A stretch of 20,486 bases of DNA, taken from the NCBI GenBank assembly GCA_030613505.1, contig JAUWLW010000046.1, positions 1 through 20,486 of the forward strand, written 5' to 3'. The notes under the pieces are model-generated. The model did not search any database. It saw only the letters and a program-made list of their open reading frames with translations, and was not told the DNA's origin. This document shows, piece after piece, positions 2,166 to 20,486 of the stretch. The stretch comes from Candidatus Zixiibacteriota bacterium (GTDB lineage: Bacteria > RBG-13-66-14 > B26-G2 > WVWN01). The translations under genes were made by a program, and so were the position numbers. Every line of letters starts with the position of its first letter. The first letter of the stretch is position 1.

Positions 2166-3119
2166 ATGAAGAAGCTCGCGATAACGACGGCCGCGGCGCT
2201 GGGCGCGCTGGCGGCCGTTTGCGCTTCCGGCGACTGGGTATACGAGGGCCAGTGGGGAACGCACGGCTCCGGTAACGGCCAGTTCAGTTTCGTCCCGGAC
2301 GTCGCCGTCGCTCCCAACGGAAACGTTTTCGTCGTCGATTCCGGATACAACTGTATCCAATACTTCAACGCTACCGGTTCGTACCTCGGCCGATGGGGTT
2401 CCTGGGGTAAAAGTAAAAGTAAGTTCGACCACCCCTCCGGCGTGGCAATAAACGGCGCCAGCCGCGTTTACGTAGTCGAGACGTGGAACCACCGCATCCA
2501 ATGCTTTACGCCGTCCGGCTCCTTGATAACGGTATGGGGCGAGCGGGGTACGGGCGAGGGTCAATTACGGTATCCCGGAGCGATAGCCATCGCGCCAAAC
2601 GGTAACGTCTACGTTGCCGATACCCAGAATCACCGCGTACAATACTTCACCGGCAAAGGCGAGTTCCTCGGTAAATGGAACTCGGGAGGTACGCTTAAGG
2701 GCCCCTATGCCGTAGCCGTGGCGGCCAACGGGAACGTATATGTCGCCGACTCGTGGGACCACTGCGTCCAATATTTTACCGCGAACGGCTCCTTTGTCGG
2801 TAAGTGAGGCTCGTTCGGACGCGGTAACGGGCAATTTATTGCACCTCGGGGTTTGGCCGTCGCGCCTAACGGCGACGTCTATGTCTCCGGCGCGGACCGC
2901 GTCCAATACTTCACCTCGACGGGTTCCTTCCTGGGTAAGTTTGGCATATCGGGGTCCTGCAACGGCATGTTTAAGAACCCTCGGGGCCTCGCCTTTTCCC
3001 CAAACGGTACGCGGATTTACGTCGCCGATTGCAACAACTTCCGGGTCCAGTATTTCCGCCTTTCCGGCGTCGCCGTCGCGCCCACGTCGCTGGGCCGCGT
3101 GAAGGCGTTGTTCAAGTAA
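2166..3119 (+). pseudogene. NHL-repeat beta-propeller, interrupted by an in-frame TGA
   Basis: The reading frame runs from the ATG at 2166 (GAGGAGG site upstream) to the TAA at 3117-3119 but has a TGA at 2805-2807. Across the stop the protein continues perfectly: six NHL blades of the form G.G.GQF..P..VAVAPNGNVYVAD...HRVQYFT..GSFLGKWG. The TGA sits exactly where the conserved Trp of the G-K-W-G turn belongs (TGG to TGA), between blades 4 and 5. The N-terminus is a signal peptide (MKKLAITTAAALGALAAVCA) and the C-terminus carries the tail TSLGRVKALFK. NHL propellers are secreted or surface binding modules; the ligand is unknown. Other genes here use TGA as a stop, so I call this a nonsense mutation or a consensus error, not recoding. 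The product would otherwise be 317 residues. Confidence 0.75.
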
Positions 3120-4690: not shown

Positions 4691-5659
4691 ATGAAGATGT
4701 TTTTAATTATCGCGGCGGTTACGGCCCTCGCGGCCGCCGCCTGGGCCTCGGGCCCGTACGTTTACGAAGGCAAGTGGGGTAAGAAAGGTTCGGGTAACGG
4801 CGAGTTCAATGACCCCGCGGGCTTGGACGGCGCGCGTAACGGCAACGTTTACGTGGCGGACAGATTGAACCACCGCGTTCAATATTTCACCTGGAACGGC
4901 TCCTTCCTCGGCACGTGGGGCACAAATGGTACCGGCAACGGCCAATTCGACCAACCCATATTCGTGAAGCTCGCCCCTAACGGCAACGTGTACGTTTCCG
5001 ACAAATTGAACTTCCGCGTCCAGTACTTCACGCCGACCGGTTCCTTCCTCGGCAAATGGGGGTCGTTCGGCACGGGCGACGGCCAATTCTACGGGCCGTG
5101 GGGCTTGGGCTTTAAAACCGACGGTACGGTGTACGTCGCCGATTCCCCCAACCACCGCGTTCAGTACTTTACCTCTACGGGTTCCTTCCTCGGTAAATGG
5201 GGCGAGTCCGGCACGGGCGCCGGCCAATTCAATTCGCCCACCGGAATAGCGGTCGCCGCCAACGGCAACGTTTACGTGGCCGACTATCGTAACGACCGCA
5301 TCCAATACTTCACCTCGAGCGGCTCGTTCCTCGGTAAATGGGGTACGAAAGGAACGGGTAACGGCCAGTTCGAATTCCCGCAGGGCGTGGACATAGGTCC
5401 GGGCGGTTACGTGTTCGTCGCGGACCAGGGAAACCACCGCGTCCAGTTCTTCACCGCGACCGGGTCCTTCCTCGGAAAATGGGGCAAGGAGGGGAGCGGC
5501 AAAGGCGAACTTAACGCCCCCAACGACGTTTTCGTTTTGCCCTCGGGTAAACGCGCCTACGTAGCCGATTATTTGAACAACCGCGTCCAATACTTCCGCC
5601 GTTCCGACCCGGCCGTCGTCCCCGAATCGCTGGGCCGGGTGAAAGCGCTGTTTAGGTAG
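4691..5659 (+). CDS. Secreted NHL-repeat beta-propeller with SLGRVKALFR tail
   Basis: A 322-residue protein. The signal peptide is of a different subtype (MKMFLIIAAVTALAAAAWA) and resembles that of the gene at 11030 rather than those of the other NHL proteins. Six very regular blades follow (G.G.GQF..P....VA.NGNVYVAD..N.RVQYFT.TGSFLGKWG). It ends VVPESLGRVKALFR-TAG. The regularity, with strong codon-level similarity between blades, suggests recent internal repeat expansion or homogenisation. It is coupled to the upstream 4185-4679 gene through TAGGAGG. A palindromic element and a new ribosome site follow before the next gene. Confidence 0.9.
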   Translation: MKMFLIIAAVTALAAAAWASGPYVYEGKWGKKGSGNGEFNDPAGLDGARNGNVYVADRLNHRVQYFTWNGSFLGTWGTNGTGNGQFDQPIFVKLAPNGNVYVSDKLNFRVQYFTPTGSFLGKWGSFGTGDGQFYGPWGLGFKTDGTVYVADSPNHRVQYFTSTGSFLGKWGESGTGAGQFNSPTGIAVAANGNVYVADYRNDRIQYFTSSGSFLGKWGTKGTGNGQFEFPQGVDIGPGGYVFVADQGNHRVQFFTATGSFLGKWGKEGSGKGELNAPNDVFVLPSGKRAYVADYLNNRVQYFRRSDPAVVPESLGRVKALFR

Positions 5660-5683
5660 GGGCGACCGGCTAGTCGCTCGGCG

Positions 5684-5724
5684 CGGACAAGGGGCTTAAG
5701 CCCCTTGTTAACGGCCCTTGTCCG
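5684..5724 (+). repeat. Palindromic stem-loop element, copy 1
   Basis: CGGACAAGGG at 5684-5693 pairs with CCCTTGTCCG at 5715-5724, and an inner perfect palindrome GGGGCTTAAGCCCC occupies 5691-5704. The two stems can compete, since ACAAGG also pairs with the CCTTGT at 5703-5708. A second element of the same design (GACAAGGG ... GTTAACG..CCCTTGTC) is at 8690-8736. It sits between coding units and has the appearance of a REP-like dispersed palindrome, which is an inference from two copies. Confidence 0.55.
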
Positions 5725-5739
5725 AGGAGGTTCAGGGAA

Positions 5740-7686
5740 ATGAATAAGCTCGCCATAACTGCGGCCGCGGCGCTCGCCGCGCTGGCGGCTTTTTATGCCT
5801 GGGGCGAACCACCCTTCGGGCAAACGCCCGACTGGGAGAGCGCCGACGAAAGGGCAACGAATGATATCGCCTTGGCCGACTTCAACGGCGACGGGTGGCG
5901 AAATACCACGGGCGAACGGAGTACGGGAAACGGTAAGAGACACGTGTTTTACCTTAAACACTACCCGGCCCTGACGATCACCGCTATAAGGGTTGACGGA
6001 AAGAAAGTACCGCGCGGCGACTACTGTTTTGACTCCCGCGCCGGCTGGTTTTCGCTCAAAGAGGCGCCCGCGGAAGGCGCCGGCGTAAAGGTAGATTATA
6101 AGTGGTCGAACCGGCTCGACTTCTTTGCCGGCAACGAGACGCGGAGCCAGACCGACAACCGCGACGTGATTTATTTCAACCGCGGCGGCGCGCTGGAGAA
6201 GACGCCGTCGTGGTTGTCGACCGCGCGCGTGAATACCTGGACCGTAAAGGAGGCTGACTACGACGCCGACGGCGACGTCGACGTTGCCATAGGCGGCGAC
6301 GCTTTTATAAAGGTCTACAAGAACACCGGCTCCGGCCTGGAGCGCACGCCGTCGTGGAGCACGTCGGAGCCCGGGGGATGGCCCGAGTGTTTCGCCTGGG
6401 GTGACGTCGACAACGACGGCTATCTCGAGTTGGCGGTGGCGGATTCGTTGGCGCAGTGGTTCTACGTCTTCAAGAACAACGGCGGTACATTGGAGAAGAC
6501 GCCGTCGTGGACCACAAATTACGACAAGGCCCGCTACGTGGCCTGGGGCGACGCCGACGGCGACGGCGACATGGATCTGGCGGGCGGTACGTCCCCTTCG
6601 GTAGGCGTGGCGGAGGGGTTCGTCTACTTATTCAGGAACAACAACGGGTCCCTCGCCAAAACCCATTATTGGAAGAACGACCCGCCCGCGGGGCGGTGTC
6701 ACGCGCTGGCCTGGGGCGACGTCAACGACGACGGCTGGCTCGACCTGGTCAAGGGCATTTTTGGGCGCGGGACGGGAAACGACCCCTACGCCGACATCTA
6801 CTATTCGAACCGGGGCGTTTTACCCAAGAAGCCGAGCTGGGAATCCGATGTCTATACGTACTGCTTCGCCTCGTGCCTGGTGGACGCCGACGCCGACGGC
6901 CTTTTGGACCTTATACAAGCTGACTTCGGCGTAATCGGCTATTTCGGTAACGGCGCGGCGTTGCCGAGAAACCCCTCGTGGGTTTACCGCGCGGGAAGCC
7001 CTTACGCTATTTTTGACGCCCGGGTCGGCGACGTCGACGCCGACCGCTACCCGGACGTCGTGGTCGGTTGCAATGCTTTACCCAGCAACCCCACCGGCGG
7101 CCGTAACAAACTATTCTTGAACAGGTGCGATATCGGCATAGACGTTGAGGATTTCGGCGCGGCCCCGCGTCGGGGCGCCGTCGCGCTACGCTGGGGAGTC
7201 TCGGTGGCCGTCGCGGGCTTCAACCTCCTGCGCGAAACCGAATACCCCTCGGCCGCCGCCGGACGGGTTAAGATTAACGAGGCCCTCATCACCGGCCGCT
7301 CGCCGTATCGCTACCTCGACGCGGACGTAATTCCGGGGACGCCGTATCGATACTGGTTGGAAGTCGTGCCGCTCGCGGGTCCCGCCGAGCTCCACGGGCC
7401 GGTGGAGTGCACGGCGGGACGCAAGGCCTCCTTCGCACTCGACCAGAACGTTCCCAATCCCGCTCGCGCGGCCACAACTATCGCGTTCTCCGTTCCCGCG
7501 GCCTGCGACGCGACGCTCGCTCTCTACGACCTGGCGGGCCGTAAGGTCGCCTCCCGCGTCGTGTCGGCCAAGGCCGGCGGTAACGAGGTCGAGGTTGACT
7601 TGTCGTCGTTCGCGCCCGGCGTGTATACGTATCGCCTGGAGGCCGGCGGTAAGGCCGCGGCGAAGCGGATGGTCGTAGTTCGTTAG
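5740..7686 (+). CDS. Secreted FG-GAP/VCBS-repeat protein with Por/FlgD-like C-terminal domain
   Basis: A 648-residue protein. The signal peptide (MNKLAITAAAALAALAAFYA) and its ribosome-site region (AGGAGGTTCAGGGAAATG) closely match those of the NHL genes, although the mature part is unrelated. Residues about 45-450 hold FG-GAP/VCBS-type repeats with calcium-type loops D-x-[DN]-x-D-G (for example DFNGDG, DYDADGD, DVDNDGY, DADGDGD, DVNDDGW, DADADGL), predicting a calcium-bound beta-propeller. A fibronectin-like stretch follows. The last 85 or so residues carry NVPNPARAATTIAFSVP, LALYDLAGRKV and G.YTYRLEAGG..AAKRMVVVR, the pattern of T9SS type A sorting or FlgD-like domains. In-frame codons after the stop still spell a relic of the array tail (see 7687-7728). 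Confidence 0.88.
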   Translation: MNKLAITAAAALAALAAFYAWGEPPFGQTPDWESADERATNDIALADFNGDGWRNTTGERSTGNGKRHVFYLKHYPALTITAIRVDGKKVPRGDYCFDSRAGWFSLKEAPAEGAGVKVDYKWSNRLDFFAGNETRSQTDNRDVIYFNRGGALEKTPSWLSTARVNTWTVKEADYDADGDVDVAIGGDAFIKVYKNTGSGLERTPSWSTSEPGGWPECFAWGDVDNDGYLELAVADSLAQWFYVFKNNGGTLEKTPSWTTNYDKARYVAWGDADGDGDMDLAGGTSPSVGVAEGFVYLFRNNNGSLAKTHYWKNDPPAGRCHALAWGDVNDDGWLDLVKGIFGRGTGNDPYADIYYSNRGVLPKKPSWESDVYTYCFASCLVDADADGLLDLIQADFGVIGYFGNGAALPRNPSWVYRAGSPYAIFDARVGDVDADRYPDVVVGCNALPSNPTGGRNKLFLNRCDIGIDVEDFGAAPRRGAVALRWGVSVAVAGFNLLRETEYPSAAAGRVKINEALITGRSPYRYLDADVIPGTPYRYWLEVVPLAGPAELHGPVECTAGRKASFALDQNVPNPARAATTIAFSVPAACDATLALYDLAGRKVASRVVSAKAGGNEVEVDLSSFAPGVYTYRLEAGGKAAAKRMVVVR

Positions 7687-13462: not shown

Positions 13463-14983
13463 TTACACTAAAACCTCGGTAGACGAAGACGAGCGGCCAC
13501 GTACCCAAATGTGTTTATTACTATCGTAAGCCCACCCCTGCTTCTTTATCATGTCTGCGAAATCCTGTTTATTGATACTCAATGCGCTTATGGCGCCCTT
13601 TTCCCAAGCCTCCACCACTAATTTGTTGAGCAGGTATTCCCCGTATATTCGACCAGTTTTCGCATCGTCAAGAATGCTGGCAATAGTAGCTTCGACATCG
13701 AACTTATCCGTTCGCCTAATCATAACCGCTTTGCCGGTCGCAAAGAACGTTAGTATCAACTCACCAGCAAGTACTGCCTTTTTGCCCTTTTTCTTGTGCA
13801 TTGACCAAATGGGGTCGCCTATTTGCGATATCGCTGCTCGGAGCTCCATTCCAGATTCGGATGCCGCCATAAGAATCGCTTCAAAGTACTTCGTCTGCCA
13901 ATGCTGGAATACTACCGAAAACCATCTTTCGGGTTTCAACATTCTCGCGCAAGCTTTGATAGAGTTCCCAAGCCGTTGTATGTATTCTTCCTCGCTGTGT
14001 TTAACGTCCCCACCTACTATTAACTCTTTCTCTTTCGCTTTCTGACTAGGCATTCGTCCTAGCCATCCATTCCACAAGGTAGATAGGTCAAGATATGCTA
14101 TGTGCGCTCCGTATGGAGGGTCTGTATATATGTAATCGATTTGGCTTTTAAAAATATCGCCAATTTCCTCAATATCCTTCTCGTAGGCGAAAAACTCCCC
14201 TTCCCATCCTCCGGTCCTCTCTTTTAACTCAATTGCGGAATCTATCTCTTTCTTGGCCTCGATTATATTCGTTGCTCTTTCAAAAAACGTAGGCCAAGCT
14301 GGTAGTATAACGGGGGTTTTCGCCACCTTATAACGATATATACTGAATAAACTTGAACCACCCCTCGACGCCCGGCGTCCTTCGGCAGATAGAAATGTCT
14401 TATTAAGTTTTGTTAGTGTTGCCGACCACGCGAGCAATAGGCCGCCTCGAATATAGTCGCTTTGAATTGCATCAATTGCCTCCTTCAGGACTCCAAGTGC
14501 TATAATTTGTTGCGGCAGGAATAATTCAAAGTATGCACCTACATCAGAATTTTTAGGAAGGGGAAGATTAGGTGGTAGTTCTAACTTCTGCTCCCATTTA
14601 CGGAGGGAAGTTTCATCTGCTGTTTCTATCTGTTCTATGGTGGGTCGACATCTTTCCTCCAATTCAGATAGGGCTGAAATATATTCTGAGGTAGTGCCAC
14701 GATGCAAATCTACGATACCTTGGGCAATGAAGTTCGCGAGAGGGTTTATGTCGTTCTGGATACCTACGCGGTTTTCAAGATAGGCCTCTATAGCCGTAAC
14801 GCCAGAACCTCCGAAAGGGTCCATCACCTTGTCGCCCTCTCTCGAATAGTGAAGAATGTACTTCTTTACGACATTGTACGGACGTCTAGTGAAATAGGGA
14901 TGAACCCCGTAATGACGCTTCGCGCTTTGGCGTTCTGCGCGAACGGGCGAATCAATAGGGGTTATATACTTATAATCGGTCAT
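13463..14983 (-). CDS. DNA amino-methyltransferase (N6-adenine or N4-cytosine), DUF1156/COG1743-like
   Basis: A 506-residue protein. The AdoMet-binding motif I is early (MDPFGGSG, residues 54-61, then a NDINPLA at 78-84) and the catalytic motif IV is late (YTDPPYG, residues 287-292). The order I then IV, with about 225 residues between, places the likely target-recognition region in the middle. The stretch DPPYGAHIAYLDLSTLWNGWLG resembles DUF1156-type methylases (DPPYYDN..YADLSDF...WL). It methylates an exocyclic amino group in DNA; sequence specificity is unknown. The ATG overlaps the stop of the upstream restriction-enzyme-like gene by ATGA, so the two form an operon. Its codon use is AT-richer than that of its neighbours, which points to transfer. 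Confidence 0.85.
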   Translation of the reverse strand: MTDYKYITPIDSPVRAERQSAKRHYGVHPYFTRRPYNVVKKYILHYSREGDKVMDPFGGSGVTAIEAYLENRVGIQNDINPLANFIAQGIVDLHRGTTSEYISALSELEERCRPTIEQIETADETSLRKWEQKLELPPNLPLPKNSDVGAYFELFLPQQIIALGVLKEAIDAIQSDYIRGGLLLAWSATLTKLNKTFLSAEGRRASRGGSSLFSIYRYKVAKTPVILPAWPTFFERATNIIEAKKEIDSAIELKERTGGWEGEFFAYEKDIEEIGDIFKSQIDYIYTDPPYGAHIAYLDLSTLWNGWLGRMPSQKAKEKELIVGGDVKHSEEEYIQRLGNSIKACARMLKPERWFSVVFQHWQTKYFEAILMAASESGMELRAAISQIGDPIWSMHKKKGKKAVLAGELILTFFATGKAVMIRRTDKFDVEATIASILDDAKTGRIYGEYLLNKLVVEAWEKGAISALSINKQDFADMIKKQGWAYDSNKHIWVRGRSSSSTEVLV

Positions 14984-15864
14984 CTTGGCCCCCCAAGCCT
15001 CTGAAGATCTAAATCAGCTAACGCCTCCAATTCTATAATATCGATGTGCTCCGGAATTGGTTTCCTGCCCTGCGTAGCACACAGTAACACTGCTCGTGAC
15101 AATTCATCTTTGCCGTACTTCTTCATTTGGTAGCTAAATCCGTTGCTATTCTTTTTAAGTTCAACGGGAATTCTGTATACCGGGAAGTCGCCGAACTTGA
15201 ACTCGGTAATACAATCATAGCCCTTACCTACGAATCCTCCGAGAGACATCCCAAGATGTTTAAGCGGTCCCGAGGCTCGAAGTATATCCGTCTCCTGAAT
15301 GTACGGTAACGCTGTTCCTTTCCGGTGGTCGCGGGCAATCCGTTGGAACTCCTCCTTGCACCAAGGAACAAGCCATGGGGTTTTGTTTATTATATCGGCC
15401 ATTTGTTTAAGCCAAAATGGGCTCTGGTAAGTTTTTGTGAATGTTAACGGTTTCGGTATGGGTTCAATAATTATCGTTTTATCCTTATCCGCATACTTAC
15501 ACTTTAGCGGCGTAATGTAGAACGCTAGGTCTCGTATCTCAATATCGACATCTATCCTCTCGAAATCCCCCGGACGTAATCGATACCAATCGCGTATGGA
15601 CTCGCCTATACTCTCTCGTGCGCGGCCTTGTTGAATACGGTCATGGCCAACCTTTCCGGGAACCGGACGATTCCTCTTGTCGAGCTTATGTTCCGTCCCG
15701 ACAGCTACGTAAACTGATTTAGTTGCACCATACGGAGTGACCAAAGCTACCCGAACAGCTCCTTTTTTCCGAAGGTACTTTTTTACTTCCGGCGTTAGGT
15801 CGTGAAAGTAGTATTGGGGTCCTCCCGTTTTTCGGCTCGCCCGTTTTGTTTGTTGTAGATGCAT
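14980..15864 (-). CDS. Putative type II restriction endonuclease (PD-(D/E)XK)
   Basis: A 294-residue protein with no family I can name. The C-terminal third has the nuclease-like pattern D217..E221 followed by VELKK at 234-238 (E235, K237), spaced as in PD-(D/E)XK enzymes. The N-terminal half (residues about 15-125) is a strand-rich region with WYRLRPGDFERIDVDIEI, which may be a B3-like DNA-recognition domain (inference). It lies directly upstream of, and overlaps, an amino-methyltransferase. That context is the strongest support for a restriction enzyme. Start at 15864 with GAGAGG about 4-6 nt upstream. An alternative is an R-M accessory protein. Confidence 0.7.
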   Translation of the reverse strand: MHLQQTKRASRKTGGPQYYFHDLTPEVKKYLRKKGAVRVALVTPYGATKSVYVAVGTEHKLDKRNRPVPGKVGHDRIQQGRARESIGESIRDWYRLRPGDFERIDVDIEIRDLAFYITPLKCKYADKDKTIIIEPIPKPLTFTKTYQSPFWLKQMADIINKTPWLVPWCKEEFQRIARDHRKGTALPYIQETDILRASGPLKHLGMSLGGFVGKGYDCITEFKFGDFPVYRIPVELKKNSNGFSYQMKKYGKDELSRAVLLCATQGRKPIPEHIDIIELEALADLDLQRLGGPR

Positions 15865-17273: not shown

Positions 17274-17330
17274 AATATGCTATAATAACTTGAGGCGCCC
17301 GTAGCTCAGTTGGACAGAGCAGCGGCCTTC
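17274..17330 (+). repeat. Direct repeat of 18096-18151: promoter core plus tRNA 5' half
   Basis: AATATGCTATAATA (17274-17287) and the next block match the DNA just upstream of, and into, the intact tRNA-Arg(TCT). The two copies differ by a one-base length change in the spacer and two substitutions in the 36-nt tRNA part. Together they bracket the NYN gene. Confidence 0.75.
17295..17330 (+). pseudogene. Truncated tRNA-Arg(TCT): 5' half only
   Basis: Acceptor 5' strand GCGCCCG, D arm and the 5' side of the anticodon arm are intact; the sequence departs at the anticodon. The break creates GCGG-CCTT-CCGC followed by GATTTTT (17322-17340), a short terminator-like hairpin. The upstream TATGCTATAAT core is kept, so a short RNA of about 40 nt might be made. 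It cannot form a tRNA. Confidence 0.8.
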
Positions 17331-17345
17331 CGCGATTTTTAATAT

Positions 17346-17374
17346 TTGACAAGGGCCAAGTGTTATGTTATAAA
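17346..17374 (+). promoter_or_regulatory. Strong sigma70-type promoter of the NYN gene
   Basis: Consensus TTGACA at 17346-17351 and TATAAA at 17369-17374 with a 17-nt spacer, about 105 nt upstream of the ATG at 17479. Confidence 0.75.
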
Positions 17375-17394
17375 TAAAATAAGCGTATAAACGC

Positions 17395-17457
17395 CCCACT
17401 TTTGCTCCGGCAACGGTGGGCCTATTACATCCCCGCCCTTGCTTAAGCAACGGCGGG
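17395..17457 (+). promoter_or_regulatory. Two related stem-loops in the leader of the NYN gene
   Basis: Hairpin 1 (17395-17420): CCCAC, internal loop, TTGC, TCCG, GCAA, GTGGG. Hairpin 2 (17432-17457): CCCGCC, TTGC, TTAA, GCAA, GGCGGG. Outer stems differ at one compensated position (CCCAC/GTGGG versus CCCGC/GCGGG), and the inner TTGC/GCAA stem is identical. They lie between promoter and ribosome site, so they would be in the 5' leader. The covarying outer stem argues for an RNA structure; autoregulation by the NYN protein is speculation. Confidence 0.6.
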
Positions 17458-17478
17458 TTTCCTAATCGGGAGGTAGAA

Positions 17479-18027
17479 ATGGAAAGGGTTATGGTCTTCG
17501 TGGACGGCAGCAACTTCTACCACGGCCTTAGGGCGAATCTCGATAGGACCGATGTGGATTTCTTCAAATTCTCGGTAAACCTGTGCGCGGAAGGCCGGTG
17601 GGTACATACCCATTATTACAATTCGCCGCGGCGGCGTGCCGAAGATGAAGGGAAATACCGGGACCAGCAGCGTTTCTTTAATTACTTACGTACGGTAAAA
17701 GGACTGACGCTCCACTTGGGTCGGCTCGAGCCAAGGACGAGGACGTGCGCGAGCTGCGGCGCTAATTACGTCGTAAACGTGGAGAAGGACGTAGACGTAA
17801 ACCTCGCGGTGGACATGCTGGCAGGGGCGTTCGACGACCAATACGACGTATGCGTCTTAGTTAGTGGGGACGGCGATTTCGCCAATTTATTAGCGGCGGT
17901 GAAACGCTTGGGTAAACAAGTGAAGGTAGCGTATTTCGGCACGGGGCGCGCCCGTGCTTTGACCCGGGAGGCGGACGAGTTCATCCATCTTACCGAGGAA
18001 TTTTTAAAGAGTTGTTGGAAGTCGTGA
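17479..18027 (+). CDS. NYN-domain (LabA/DUF88-like) protein, putative RNase
   Basis: A 182-residue protein. The frame opens earlier, but the ATG at 17479 has a GGGAGGT site 5 nt upstream and starts exactly at the domain (MERVMVFVDGSNF). Conserved acidic residues fit the PIN/NYN active site: D9 in VDGSN, D104/D106 in KDVDVNLAVDML with D112, and D131/D133 in SGDGDF. A CASC pair at residues 90-93 is an insertion that may bind metal, though only two cysteines are clear there. NYN proteins are metal-dependent RNases or RNA-processing factors by family; the substrate here is unknown. The gene sits between a tRNA 5' half and the intact tRNA-Arg(TCT), with its own promoter and a structured leader. 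Confidence 0.87.
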   Translation: MERVMVFVDGSNFYHGLRANLDRTDVDFFKFSVNLCAEGRWVHTHYYNSPRRRAEDEGKYRDQQRFFNYLRTVKGLTLHLGRLEPRTRTCASCGANYVVNVEKDVDVNLAVDMLAGAFDDQYDVCVLVSGDGDFANLLAAVKRLGKQVKVAYFGTGRARALTREADEFIHLTEEFLKSCWKS

Positions 18028-18115
18028 GTGAAATAGGAATCGTCATGATATAAGCCGCAAGTATCCTTTGTTAGACTCCCTCGCGTTTACCGCTCAATAT
18101 GCTATAATAGGTCAG

Positions 18116-18189
18116 GCGCCCGTAGCTCAGTCGGATAGAGCAGCGGCCTTCTAAGCCGCGGGTCGCGGGTTCGAATCCTGCCGGGCGCG
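18116..18189 (+). tRNA. tRNA-Arg (anticodon TCT)
   Basis: A full 74-nt cloverleaf: acceptor GCGCCCG/CGGGCGC, D arm GCTC..GAGC, anticodon stem GCGGC/GCCGC with loop CTTCTAA, and T arm GCGGG-TTCGAAT-CCTGC. No CCA is encoded. A TATAAT at 18103-18108 lies just upstream. It reads AGA. Confidence 0.93.
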
Positions 18190-18205
18190 CATCTCGCGGG
18201 TGCGC

Positions 18206-18234
18206 TTTACACGGCCGCGAAAATAAGTTATATT
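18206..18234 (+). promoter_or_regulatory. Promoter of the tRNA-His gene
   Basis: TTTACA at 18206-18211 and TATATT at 18229-18234 with a 17-nt spacer, ending 13 nt before tRNA-His. It probably also drives tRNA-Arg(CCG), which follows closely. Confidence 0.65.
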
Positions 18235-18246
18235 GTGATAGTCGAC

Positions 18247-18321
18247 GGTGGGCGTAGCTCAGCTGGTGAGAGCGCCAGACTGTGGATCTGGAGGTCGGGG
18301 GTTCAAATCCCCTCGCCCACC
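18247..18321 (+). tRNA. tRNA-His (anticodon GTG)
   Basis: Cloverleaf with acceptor GTGGGCG/CGCCCAC, loop CTGTGGA on stem CCAGA/TCTGG, and T arm GGGGG-TTCAAAT-CCCCT. The extra G at 18247 (G-1) faces C73 at 18321, the identity pair of tRNA-His. Confidence 0.94.
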
Positions 18322-18332
18322 CATCGCCTAAT

Positions 18333-18406
18333 GCGCCGGTAGCTCAGCTGGATAGAGCGACGGCCTCCGGAGCCGTAGGTCGCAGGTTCGAATCCTGTCC
18401 GGCGTA
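18333..18406 (+). tRNA. tRNA-Arg (anticodon CCG)
   Basis: A 74-nt cloverleaf: acceptor GCGCCGG/CCGGCGT (terminal G-T pair), anticodon stem ACGGC/GCCGT with loop CTCCGGA, and T arm GCAGG-TTCGAAT-CCTGT. No CCA is encoded. It reads CGG. Its 3' two thirds are repeated at 18776-18824. Confidence 0.92.
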
Positions 18407-18453
18407 AATCGAGTAGCGGCACGCAAGTTCCGCGGAGGCGCGGGAAGCGGCGT

Positions 18454-18531
18454 ATGAAACGTAATAAGAAAAGGACGGGCCGGCGGTCGTCGTACGCGAC
18501 GGCAAGCCGGCCGCAGTTATTTCGGACATGA
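18454..18531 (+). CDS. Short Arg/Lys-rich ORF, doubtful
   Basis: A 25-codon ORF (MKRNKKRTGRRSSY...LFRT) between tRNA-Arg(CCG) and the small basic gene. In the frame of the next gene the following codons read an acidic stretch (DEDREALERVEDADAG) without a start, so this may be the head of a frameshifted longer gene. AGCGG is the only weak ribosome site. Low confidence. Confidence 0.25.
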   Translation: MKRNKKRTGRRSSYATASRPQLFRT

Positions 18532-18592
18532 CGAGGACCGCGAGGCGCTCGAGCGCGTCGAGGACGCCGACGCCGGCGTTACGGAGGAACTA

Positions 18593-18730
18593 ATGGCTAA
18601 AGGTAGAGACCGCGGACGGGACCAAAAAGGCGGAAAGAAAAAGAAGAAAACGAAAAAGAAAGTGAAAGAGGCCAAGGTCGAGCCCGGGCGCGTGGGCTAC
18701 GGCGGCTACGGCGGCTACGGCAAAAAATAG
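18593..18730 (+). CDS. Small basic protein with Lys-rich core and GGY repeats
   Basis: A 45-residue ORF with a good ribosome site (GGAGG at 18583-18587, 5 nt from the ATG). It begins MAKGRDRGRDQKGG, has a run with 13 Lys in about 20 residues, and ends in G-Y-G-G-Y-G-G-Y-G-K-K. The composition suggests binding to nucleic acid or another polyanion, but no family is recognised. It lies in the segment bounded by the intact tRNA-Arg(CCG) and its 3' partial copy, so it is the only candidate cargo there. The codon pattern is regular at third positions in the GGY part. It could be a chance low-complexity ORF. Confidence 0.45.
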   Translation: MAKGRDRGRDQKGGKKKKKTKKKVKEAKVEPGRVGYGGYGGYGKK

Positions 18731-18775
18731 GTAGCCAACCCCTGCGCGTCTCCGGCGTCGCGCCCCCCCCCCCCG

Positions 18776-18824
18776 CGGCCTCCGGAGCCGTAGGTCGCAG
18801 GTTCGAATACTGTCCGGCGTAAAT
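18776..18824 (+). pseudogene. Partial copy of tRNA-Arg(CCG), 3' part
   Basis: 49 nt identical to 18361-18409 except one C-to-A change in the T arm (TTCGAATACTG for TTCGAATCCTG). It covers the anticodon arm through the acceptor 3' strand plus three flanking bases. It begins right after a run of 12 C residues (18763-18774) and is followed by ATATTTTTT. A 3' tRNA copy of this kind is the usual footprint of a tRNA-targeting integration (attR/attL); no integrase is present in the window. Confidence 0.8.
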
Positions 18825-18857
18825 ATTTTTTCGCAGCGTTTATCTGGGAGGAAGACG

Positions 18858-18935
18858 ATGCGGAGGTCAGGTACGCTACTCACAGCTCTCCTGCTCGCGA
18901 CGGCCGCGGCCGCCGGGGCGGGAGATAATGTTTAA
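18858..18935 (+). pseudogene. Truncated copy of the 20171 secreted-protein gene (signal peptide only)
   Basis: Ribosome site and start (GGGAGGAAGACGATG) and the next 75 nt match the beginning of the gene at 20171, giving MRRSGTLLTALLLATAAAAG then AGDNV and a TAA. About 6 differences are seen over roughly 88 nt (18846-18933 versus 20159-20246). Homology stops at TTTAATTAAC (18931-18940). It looks like a 5' fragment left by an insertion or duplication that brought in the next two genes. Confidence 0.75.
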
Positions 18936-18952
18936 TTAACGGACTGTACAAC

Positions 18953-19264
18953 GTGAAGATATTCATTGCGCTAGCAATTACGCTTTTAATAGGTACAACG
19001 ATAATTCCGGGATGCTCCAAACGAAAACCCGAAGATATCGCTATTGATAAAGTATGCGACGCGGGTCCCCGAGGAAGAATCCCCCAAGATAAGCTCGTGG
19101 TAAAAAATAACCCAAAGGGTGAGGGACTAGTAGTAATTCGGAAGCGTTATAACGCCGCGTGGTTAGTACAAGGCGATAAAGTATACGCGATAAACGGCTT
19201 TGCGGCAGGCGTTACGCCGGGAGTAGAATACACCCGGGAATTAAACATTGACGACGTAAATTAA
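18953..19264 (+). CDS. Small lipoprotein of unknown function
   Basis: A 103-residue protein starting at GTG 18953. The signal ends in a lipobox-like IIPGC, with Cys at about residue 21, followed by SKRKPED. The mature part is small and contains VIRKRYNAAWLVQGDKVYAINGFA, suggesting a small beta-rich domain. I do not recognise a family. The ribosome site is weak. DNA is AT-richer than the flanks, and the gene is 14 nt upstream of the HsdR-N-like gene, so the two are likely co-transcribed and acquired together. Confidence 0.65.
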   Translation: MKIFIALAITLLIGTTIIPGCSKRKPEDIAIDKVCDAGPRGRIPQDKLVVKNNPKGEGLVVIRKRYNAAWLVQGDKVYAINGFAAGVTPGVEYTRELNIDDVN

Positions 19265-19278
19265 CAAGGAGTAGGAAA

Positions 19279-20082
19279 ATGCCTAAAGTTAAAACTACAA
19301 AAGAGCAACGGAAAGCGATACGGGAAGCGCGGAAGATAATCGAGCAAGCGCTAAAACTCGACGCGAACGAGGCCGAAACGCGCAAGCGCGTAGATCGGAT
19401 TTTCGAATGGGTGATGGGTTACGACACGTTTAAGCATATCACGCGCGAATATGCTGTCCGGGGTCCGGGCGAAACGGAGTACGTGGACTTCGCGGTCCAA
19501 CTCAAACCCGGCCAAGACGTCGAACCCGTAATGCTGGTCGAATTAAAAAGGGTCGGCATCGAGTTAGCGAAGAAACACCTAAAACAAATAACAGAGTACG
19601 CTAGAGACGCCGGTTGCGAATGGTTGCTTCTTACTAACGGAAAGGAATGGCGGGTATACCACGTCGAGTTTGGTAAGCCTCCGAAAACCGAAATTTACGA
19701 ATCGTGGGATCTCCTAGGCGACGATATAGACGATATCGTTCGCAAGTTCGAACTAATAAATTATAAATCCATCAAGCGCGGACTCCTTAATAAAAATTGG
19801 GAACGCGTGAAGGTCCTCAAGCCGGATACCCTACTCGCAGCGATAATCTCCCCAGATACGTTTAGAGTTATTCGTCGCAATCTACGTAAAGATACCGGCG
19901 TTCGGGTTGACGATGAAGAAGTACATAAGGGTATAACCAAATTATTGAACGAGGCCGCCGGAAAAGTTATACCCAAATTAAAAAAGCCTCTAACTAAAAA
20001 GAGAACCCAAAAACCAATAACTAAAGACCAACCTAAACCTAAACCTTTAGTTTTCGAAAACGGAACGCGTAATAAGGGTTAG
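19279..20082 (+). CDS. HsdR N-terminal-like PD-(D/E)XK nuclease domain protein, stand-alone
   Basis: A 267-residue protein with AAGGAG 11 nt upstream of the ATG. Residues 10-130 fit the type I restriction R-subunit N-terminal domain (HSDR_N_2 type). A helical start is followed by E66..YVDFAV with D70, then VELK at 87-90 (E88, K90), and the QxxxY motif as Q103-ITE-Y107. The region LLTNGKEWRVYHV matches the family end strand. There is no helicase domain, only a Lys/Pro-rich tail after about residue 230. Such single-domain proteins occur as solitary nucleases or remnants; no HsdM or HsdS gene is visible here. It may be defence cargo. Codon use is AT-rich. Confidence 0.82.
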   Translation: MPKVKTTKEQRKAIREARKIIEQALKLDANEAETRKRVDRIFEWVMGYDTFKHITREYAVRGPGETEYVDFAVQLKPGQDVEPVMLVELKRVGIELAKKHLKQITEYARDAGCEWLLLTNGKEWRVYHVEFGKPPKTEIYESWDLLGDDIDDIVRKFELINYKSIKRGLLNKNWERVKVLKPDTLLAAIISPDTFRVIRRNLRKDTGVRVDDEEVHKGITKLLNEAAGKVIPKLKKPLTKKRTQKPITKDQPKPKPLVFENGTRNKG

Positions 20083-20170
20083 CGGCCGGCTTAGGGAATT
20101 TAATTTCCACGATCACCAACCGCGGTTTCGAGTGGCGGTTCGTGGAGGAGTGAGCTAAGGGAGGAAGACG

Positions 20171-20486
20171 ATGCGGAGGTCAGTTACGCTATTCATTGCT
20201 CTCCTGCTCGCGACGGCCGCGGCCGCCGGGGCGGGAGATAAAGTTAAGTGGTGCAAGTCGAAGAAGATCGCGTACGTCTCGGCGGACGAGGACCCGGCCT
20301 CCCTCAGCGACGACTGCTACAAGGTGGGCCTGCGCTACACCGTCACCTGGCAGCCCTATACCCATCCGCACATCTACAGCTTCGACGTAACGTACTACAG
20401 CTGGGAGCACTTCGCCGCGGGCATCAACGTCCGCCGCAACCTGGGCCGGTGCGTGGGCGAGGAGTACGAGAAAGAGGTCAAAACCG
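20171..20486 (+). CDS. Secreted protein of unknown function, partial (runs off the window)
   Basis: 105 codons are visible. A signal peptide (MRRSVTLFIALLLATAAAAG) is followed by DKVKWCKSKKIAYVSADEDP, three cysteines so far, and Tyr/Trp-rich strands (YTVTWQPYTHPHIYSFDVTYYSW) as in a beta sandwich. No family is recognised. The start is set by GGGAGG 8 nt upstream. Its first 88 nt are duplicated at 18846-18933, and this downstream copy appears intact. Confidence 0.75.
   Translation, partial: MRRSVTLFIALLLATAAAAGAGDKVKWCKSKKIAYVSADEDPASLSDDCYKVGLRYTVTWQPYTHPHIYSFDVTYYSWEHFAAGINVRRNLGRCVGEEYEKEVKT

Follow-up and report, generated by a model that had tools for sequence, protein, structure and literature searches.

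A putatively mobile RNA-NYN nuclease cassette inserted at tRNA-Arg(TCT) in a Candidatus Zixiibacteriota genome

The cassette and its insertion site

The window analysed here is one entire contig of 20,486 bp (JAUWLW010000046.1) from a metagenome-assembled genome (G000, 2.86 Mb) of a Candidatus Zixiibacteriota bacterium. An initial annotation of this DNA had described three repeat pairs, each enclosing a cargo segment, and all three are present in the sequence. The subject of this report is the first, in which a cassette of ~765 bp (17331-18095; plus strand, as for every feature of the three repeat pairs) lies at a tRNA-Arg(TCT) gene and holds just two genes, one for an NYN nuclease and, adjoining it, one for a structured RNA that the annotation had overlooked; its remark that no integrase or transposase is visible is borne out for these 765 bp.

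The cassette is flanked by direct repeats of its target. The left copy (17274-17330), a dead remnant, comprises an extended -10 promoter (TGCTATAAT) and the 5' half of tRNA-Arg(TCT), and the right copy (18096-18151) lies within the working promoter and the intact tRNA (18116-18190, detected by ARAGORN and Rfam), so that the NYN gene does sit between a half and a full tRNA as first described. The copies are 89% identical with one indel, and the target duplication of ~56 bp runs from the promoter to the anticodon, once on each side of the insert. With up to two mismatches allowed, AATATGCTATAATA occurs only in these two copies (0.01 occurrences expected in shuffles). The relatives G001 and G003 contain the same tRNA array, Arg(TCT)-His-Arg(CCG), without the NYN insert, and G002 carries tRNA-Arg(TCT) at another location, likewise without it; the empty sites in these same-genus relatives hold the duplicated stretch once. 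The left copy is the continuation of the ancestral upstream flank seen in G001 and G003, while the right copy is part of the working tRNA, and the two copies are closer to each other than to those of the relatives, a comparison that involves few sites. Because the site is empty in all three relatives, sequence comparison identifies the arrangement as an insertion into tRNA-Arg(TCT).

The NYN (PIN-like) nuclease gene (17479-18027) encodes 182 amino acids (aa) and was recognized by Pfam (NYN, 6.6e-27), by the PADLOC model HEC-09 (4e-31), which matches four of four NYN proteins tested, and by its fold. The protein retains the conserved acidic residues and gives a confident structure model, whose fold is most like those of 2QIP and the Marf1 NYN domain. 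By Pfam and fold, the presumptive toxin is therefore an NYN protein and not a ToxN-type endoribonuclease.

Upstream of the nuclease gene lies an RNA of two tandem hairpins, the second of which is terminator-like (17386-17466; covariance model match 70.6 bits), preceded by a sigma-70-type promoter (TTGACA-17-TATAAA, 17346-17374, 11/12 matches). In a plain MAFFT alignment of 11 relatives, not fitted to any structure, RNAalifold predicted two hairpins, 18 of whose 20 pairs show compensatory changes. In a larger alignment of 36 RNA matches, fitted to the model, paired cells reached 96% (72% in shuffled versions) with a covariation score of 0.66 (0.22 shuffled), the pairing signal collapsed in slid versions, and the helix pairs were the 12 top-ranked covarying pairs of a mutual-information scan, in which an extra covarying helix indicative of a pseudoknot was not seen. 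The layout of each unit is approximately AUNANCNCCC-stem-UUG-loop-CAA-stem-GGGU, and the UUG/CAA pair co-varies in step between both hairpins, as would be expected if one protein read both. A promoter score of at least 10/12 was found upstream of the RNA in 20 of the 36 relatives (1.7% in shuffles), also where the RNA and NYN are on opposite strands, and on these sequence signals the RNA is predicted to be an independently promoted gene. No family in Rfam 15 matches it. The number of units may vary, as an apparent third unit of the same kind lies upstream of the RNA match at L159 and L019/L180.

Linkage, spread and recurrent target duplications

The RNA is linked to NYN genes well beyond this genome. 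The covariance model places it within ~170 bp of NYN in ~55 of the searched loci, 33 of them with scores above 40 bits; the weaker matches beside NYN, which include many archaeal ones, are less certain. Across 61 whole genomes, all strong RNA hits adjoin a NYN gene, and the pair was found in many bacterial and archaeal phyla. At most loci the RNA lies directly upstream of NYN on the same strand, and its terminator-like hairpin immediately precedes the ribosome-binding site of NYN. Phyla are intermixed in the NYN tree, and three Coatesbacteria NYN proteins form one clade (99/91) while occupying three unrelated sites. A plasmid or phage vehicle was considered and set aside, with one distant match among 72,556 plasmid records, no cassette match among 50,697 phage records, and one viral contig. 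Two isolated observations concern single loci: a weak RNA model match (27 bits) at G008:C232:4784-4840 (L200) with no detected NYN nearby is either chance or a solo RNA, and at L021 (G051:C119, ~390-1510) the NYN gene beside tRNA-Glu is broken by an apparent IS630-type transposase gene, which lies on the other side of the frame.

Cassettes at other sites carry the same kind of scar. Flanking direct repeats (E<1e-4) are far commoner around NYN genes (10 of 75) than at random control positions taken from the same contigs (3 of 640). In G001, a cassette separates a 24-nt 5' piece of tRNA-Phe from the complete tRNA-Phe gene, at a site that in G000 is empty and has the duplicated stretch a single time, and in G051 (Candidatus Desantisbacteria; L182) one lies between a 5' half and a full tRNA-Glu. 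Protein genes are also affected, with duplication of the 5' end of purC (L110) and of a leuA-like gene (L119), and of the 3' end of glnA (L132), cutA (L160), a response-regulator/GAF gene (L121), a zinc-ribbon gene (L157) and a gene of no assigned function (L163); at all seven loci the larger target copy is kept on one side, and either strand is used. At two of the ten repeat-flanked loci (L113 and L133) the repeat is not tied to a gene. The duplications vary from 24 to 154 bp and break at different places (anticodon, D-loop, ends of protein genes), with no fixed tRNA crossover site, and comparison of the cassette termini by eye revealed none that are shared.

Scars of this kind also accompany other cargo in the surveyed loci. 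At L119, a DNA methylase, an 86-aa open reading frame (ORF) and an EVE-domain protein (4721-7062) separate a second 5' piece of the leuA-like gene from its full copy, directly after the NYN cassette, pointing to two successive insertions into one target. At L130 (1340-2470), a ~70-bp 5' piece and the full copy of a leuD-like gene enclose an alpha/beta-hydrolase-like gene that L127 lacks, again such a scar but around a different cargo.

Neighbouring insertions and other features of the contig

The second repeat pair had been described as a small basic ORF between a full tRNA-Arg(CCG) and its 3' part, and this arrangement is upheld. The intact tRNA-Arg(CCG) (18332-18407; ARAGORN, Rfam) is followed by an insert (18408-18775) that is common to G001:C13 (85%) and absent in G003, where the empty site has the duplicated stretch a single time, and then by a displaced 49-bp duplicate of the tRNA 3' part (18776-18824) with 98% identity to the full tRNA. 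The insert encodes a small basic protein of 45 aa (18593-18730), belonging to a family conserved in the genus, with the same ORF after the tRNA in G001 and a relative elsewhere in G002. In G001 the tRNA-Arg(CCG) piece has been lost, and the adjoining signal-peptide gene is reduced to a remnant. Since the insert is shared with one relative (G001), sequence comparison makes it an older insertion of the same style as the first, with other cargo. A by-eye resemblance to a Phd-like antitoxin in one frame of this region was dropped after a Pfam search gave nothing.

The third pair has a different structure. A lipoprotein-like ORF of 103 aa (18953-19264; no Pfam or NCBIfam match) and an HSDR_N_2-domain protein of 267 aa (19279-20082; Pfam 2.2e-12) had been placed between a signal-peptide fragment and a full copy of the same gene. 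The 87-nt repeat exists, with 94% identity between 18846-18932 and 20159-20245, and its left part is a 5' remnant (ribosome-binding site and signal peptide) homologous to a single gene in G003. The supposed full copy (20159-20486, identified by homology) runs past the contig end and so cannot be called intact, and a 3' remnant at 20091-20153 (frame LGNLISTITNRGFEWRFVEE*), whose C-terminus resembles those of the G003 and G002 genes, had been overlooked. The family occurs as a pair in G002 and as a single gene in G003. As the 3' end of the same family follows the lipoprotein/HsdR_N pair, the sequence is read not as a simple partial-plus-full case, but as an insertion that split copy 1 of a tandem pair, the middle of copy 1 having been lost. 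The initial view that the target function is kept stands for the first two inserts, where a whole target lies beside the insert. For the HSDR_N_2 protein, G002-G006 yielded no relative, G001 a weak one at another location and G053 one with 47% identity. Around HsdR_N relatives no convincing target duplications were found, the hits at L192 and L195 being overlapping flanks of short loci, and L191 has a diverged repeat.

Several further features of the contig lie apart from these inserts. At least seven predicted secreted proteins (ORF ends at 3119, 4173, 4679, 5659, 8690, 11617 and 12123), many with NHL-type repeats, share a tail of approximately P.SLGRVKALFR, also found in G002 proteins, which looks like an unrecognised C-terminal sorting signal. 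At 2166-3119, a stop divides an NHL-repeat protein into frames of 213 and 88 aa, as in a pseudogene or through sequence error. On the minus strand (13463-15864), a DNA methyltransferase gene overlaps an ORF of 294 aa that matches no family; the two form a candidate restriction-modification pair in which the ORF would encode an endonuclease of unrecognised type.

Origin, function and relation to known systems

The three arrangements are not one element. A hotspot is possible, but the events differ in age and cargo. The first is interpreted, with reasonable though guarded confidence, as a mobile RNA-NYN cassette that was end-joined into its site with target duplication and that would act as an RNA-antitoxin/nuclease addiction or abortive-infection module. 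The cassette may have entered by illegitimate end joining, for example as a fragment caught between two broken sister copies, where the offset of the breaks would produce a target duplication of any length. Selection would then retain those events whose duplication spans a gene end, leaving one whole copy; because a duplication across one gene end keeps the gene whole, selection alone can explain why the target is spared. The RNA repeats would bind and restrain the nuclease, as do the RNA antitoxins of type III toxin-antitoxin systems or AbiF, and by this analogy a type III-like RNA-antitoxin/RNase addiction or defence module is the likeliest function of the pair. The broader proposal, that an undescribed module of this kind spreads through bacteria and archaea as a bare ~0.8-kb cassette lacking its own recombinase and sparing the target gene, is about evenly balanced between being right and wrong. 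Several observations weigh against these readings. Most NYN loci lack a detectable duplication; some copy pairs are diverged (tRNA-Glu 83%, purC 85%), which a carried-in piece of the target would also explain; the cassette of G004, an order-level relative, sits within a type IIG gene and shows no visible duplication; and at 9 of the 33 stronger loci the RNA and NYN occupy opposite strands, in convergent or divergent orientation, unlike in known type III systems.

A carried-in target piece is central to the idea, close to that of the initial annotation, of a site-specific element in which a trans-acting integrase inserts the cassette at the ends of tRNA and other genes and the cassette brings the piece that restores its target (here the 5' part with its promoter). 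The recurrence of tRNA targets (Arg, Phe, Glu), the strong divergence that copies can show, and the upstream sequence of the right tRNA-Phe in G001, which is unlike that of the left piece, fit this idea, but the break points vary, the duplicated part may be 24-154 bp from either end and either strand of tRNA or protein genes, and each of the window's two copies has the other as its nearest match (on few sites). A transposase or integrase is disfavoured because of this variable length and use of either gene end, the lack of shared termini, and the lack of a recombinase gene in the cassette, and the site-specific alternative is judged improbable. Also unlikely, though to a lesser degree, is that the RNA serves NYN in cis as a leader or attenuator (e.g. 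in self-control through cutting by NYN), with NYN as an ordinary RNA-processing or defence gene. Its usual position, directly upstream on the same strand with a terminator-like hairpin before the ribosome-binding site, is what such a leader would have, but roughly a quarter of the stronger loci encode the RNA on the other strand under a promoter of its own, and the matched UUG/CAA tops of the two repeated units point to an RNA that binds protein. Tandem duplication of tRNAs or genes with decay and chance capture of neighbouring DNA, which the initial annotation had held open, or assembly joins, would fit the third arrangement, which resembles a split tandem gene whose family has two tandem copies in G002. 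For the first two, empty sites in relatives indicate insertions, and the targets there are single-copy with syntenic flanks; as the repeats are also short and non-identical, assembly joins are unlikely at both, and with the same kind of scar around NYN cassettes in unrelated genomes, this explanation is very improbable overall.

If end joining of an RNA-NYN addiction or defence cassette is correct, the pair would represent a new class of nuclease module under RNA control, its RNA family missing from Rfam 15, in bacteria and archaea of mostly uncultured lineages, and the approximately ten clear cases would allow one to ask how recombinase-less genes move. HEC-09, the NYN protein family matched here, is described as an Hma-embedded defence candidate, and as a candidate only (preprint of Payne 2024, as cited in PMC12988326); like it, the G004 cassette is embedded in other defence genes. 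A literature search that excluded preprints and covered few subscription papers found neither an RNA partner nor target duplications mentioned for HEC-09, and no paper joining NYN with RNA antitoxins. Two-repeat RNAs upstream of an RNase are known from AbiF (RNA RF03085) and ToxIN (PMC12373285, PMC8860590). The present pair shares with the type III systems (ToxIN, CptIN, TenpIN) and with AbiF the tandem structured RNA repeats, the terminator and the adjoining RNase gene, and with AbiF also the number of two repeats. It differs in having NYN instead of ToxN or HEPN, in its RNA family, and in the possible location of the two genes on opposite strands, and is not filed as a type III member because the ToxN fold, a defining feature, is absent.

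As in tRNA-targeting islands with tyrosine integrases (PMC4383910), the tRNA is split and restored, and a displaced fragment marks one end. By contrast, the cassette is only ~0.8 kb and lacks an integrase, its break points vary, and protein genes are also targeted. The scar matches ‘insertion with long target duplication’; according to PMC3031569, which cites Nobusato 2000 and Furuta 2010, target duplications that are long and vary in length are reported for every type of restriction-modification system. In both settings the cargo is small and of a selfish or defence kind, the target flanks it as long direct repeats of variable length, and no recombinase is needed. The cargo here includes the RNA-NYN pair and the small basic gene, among others, across many bacterial and archaeal phyla, and if the interpretation is correct, this mode of insertion extends beyond restriction-modification genes.

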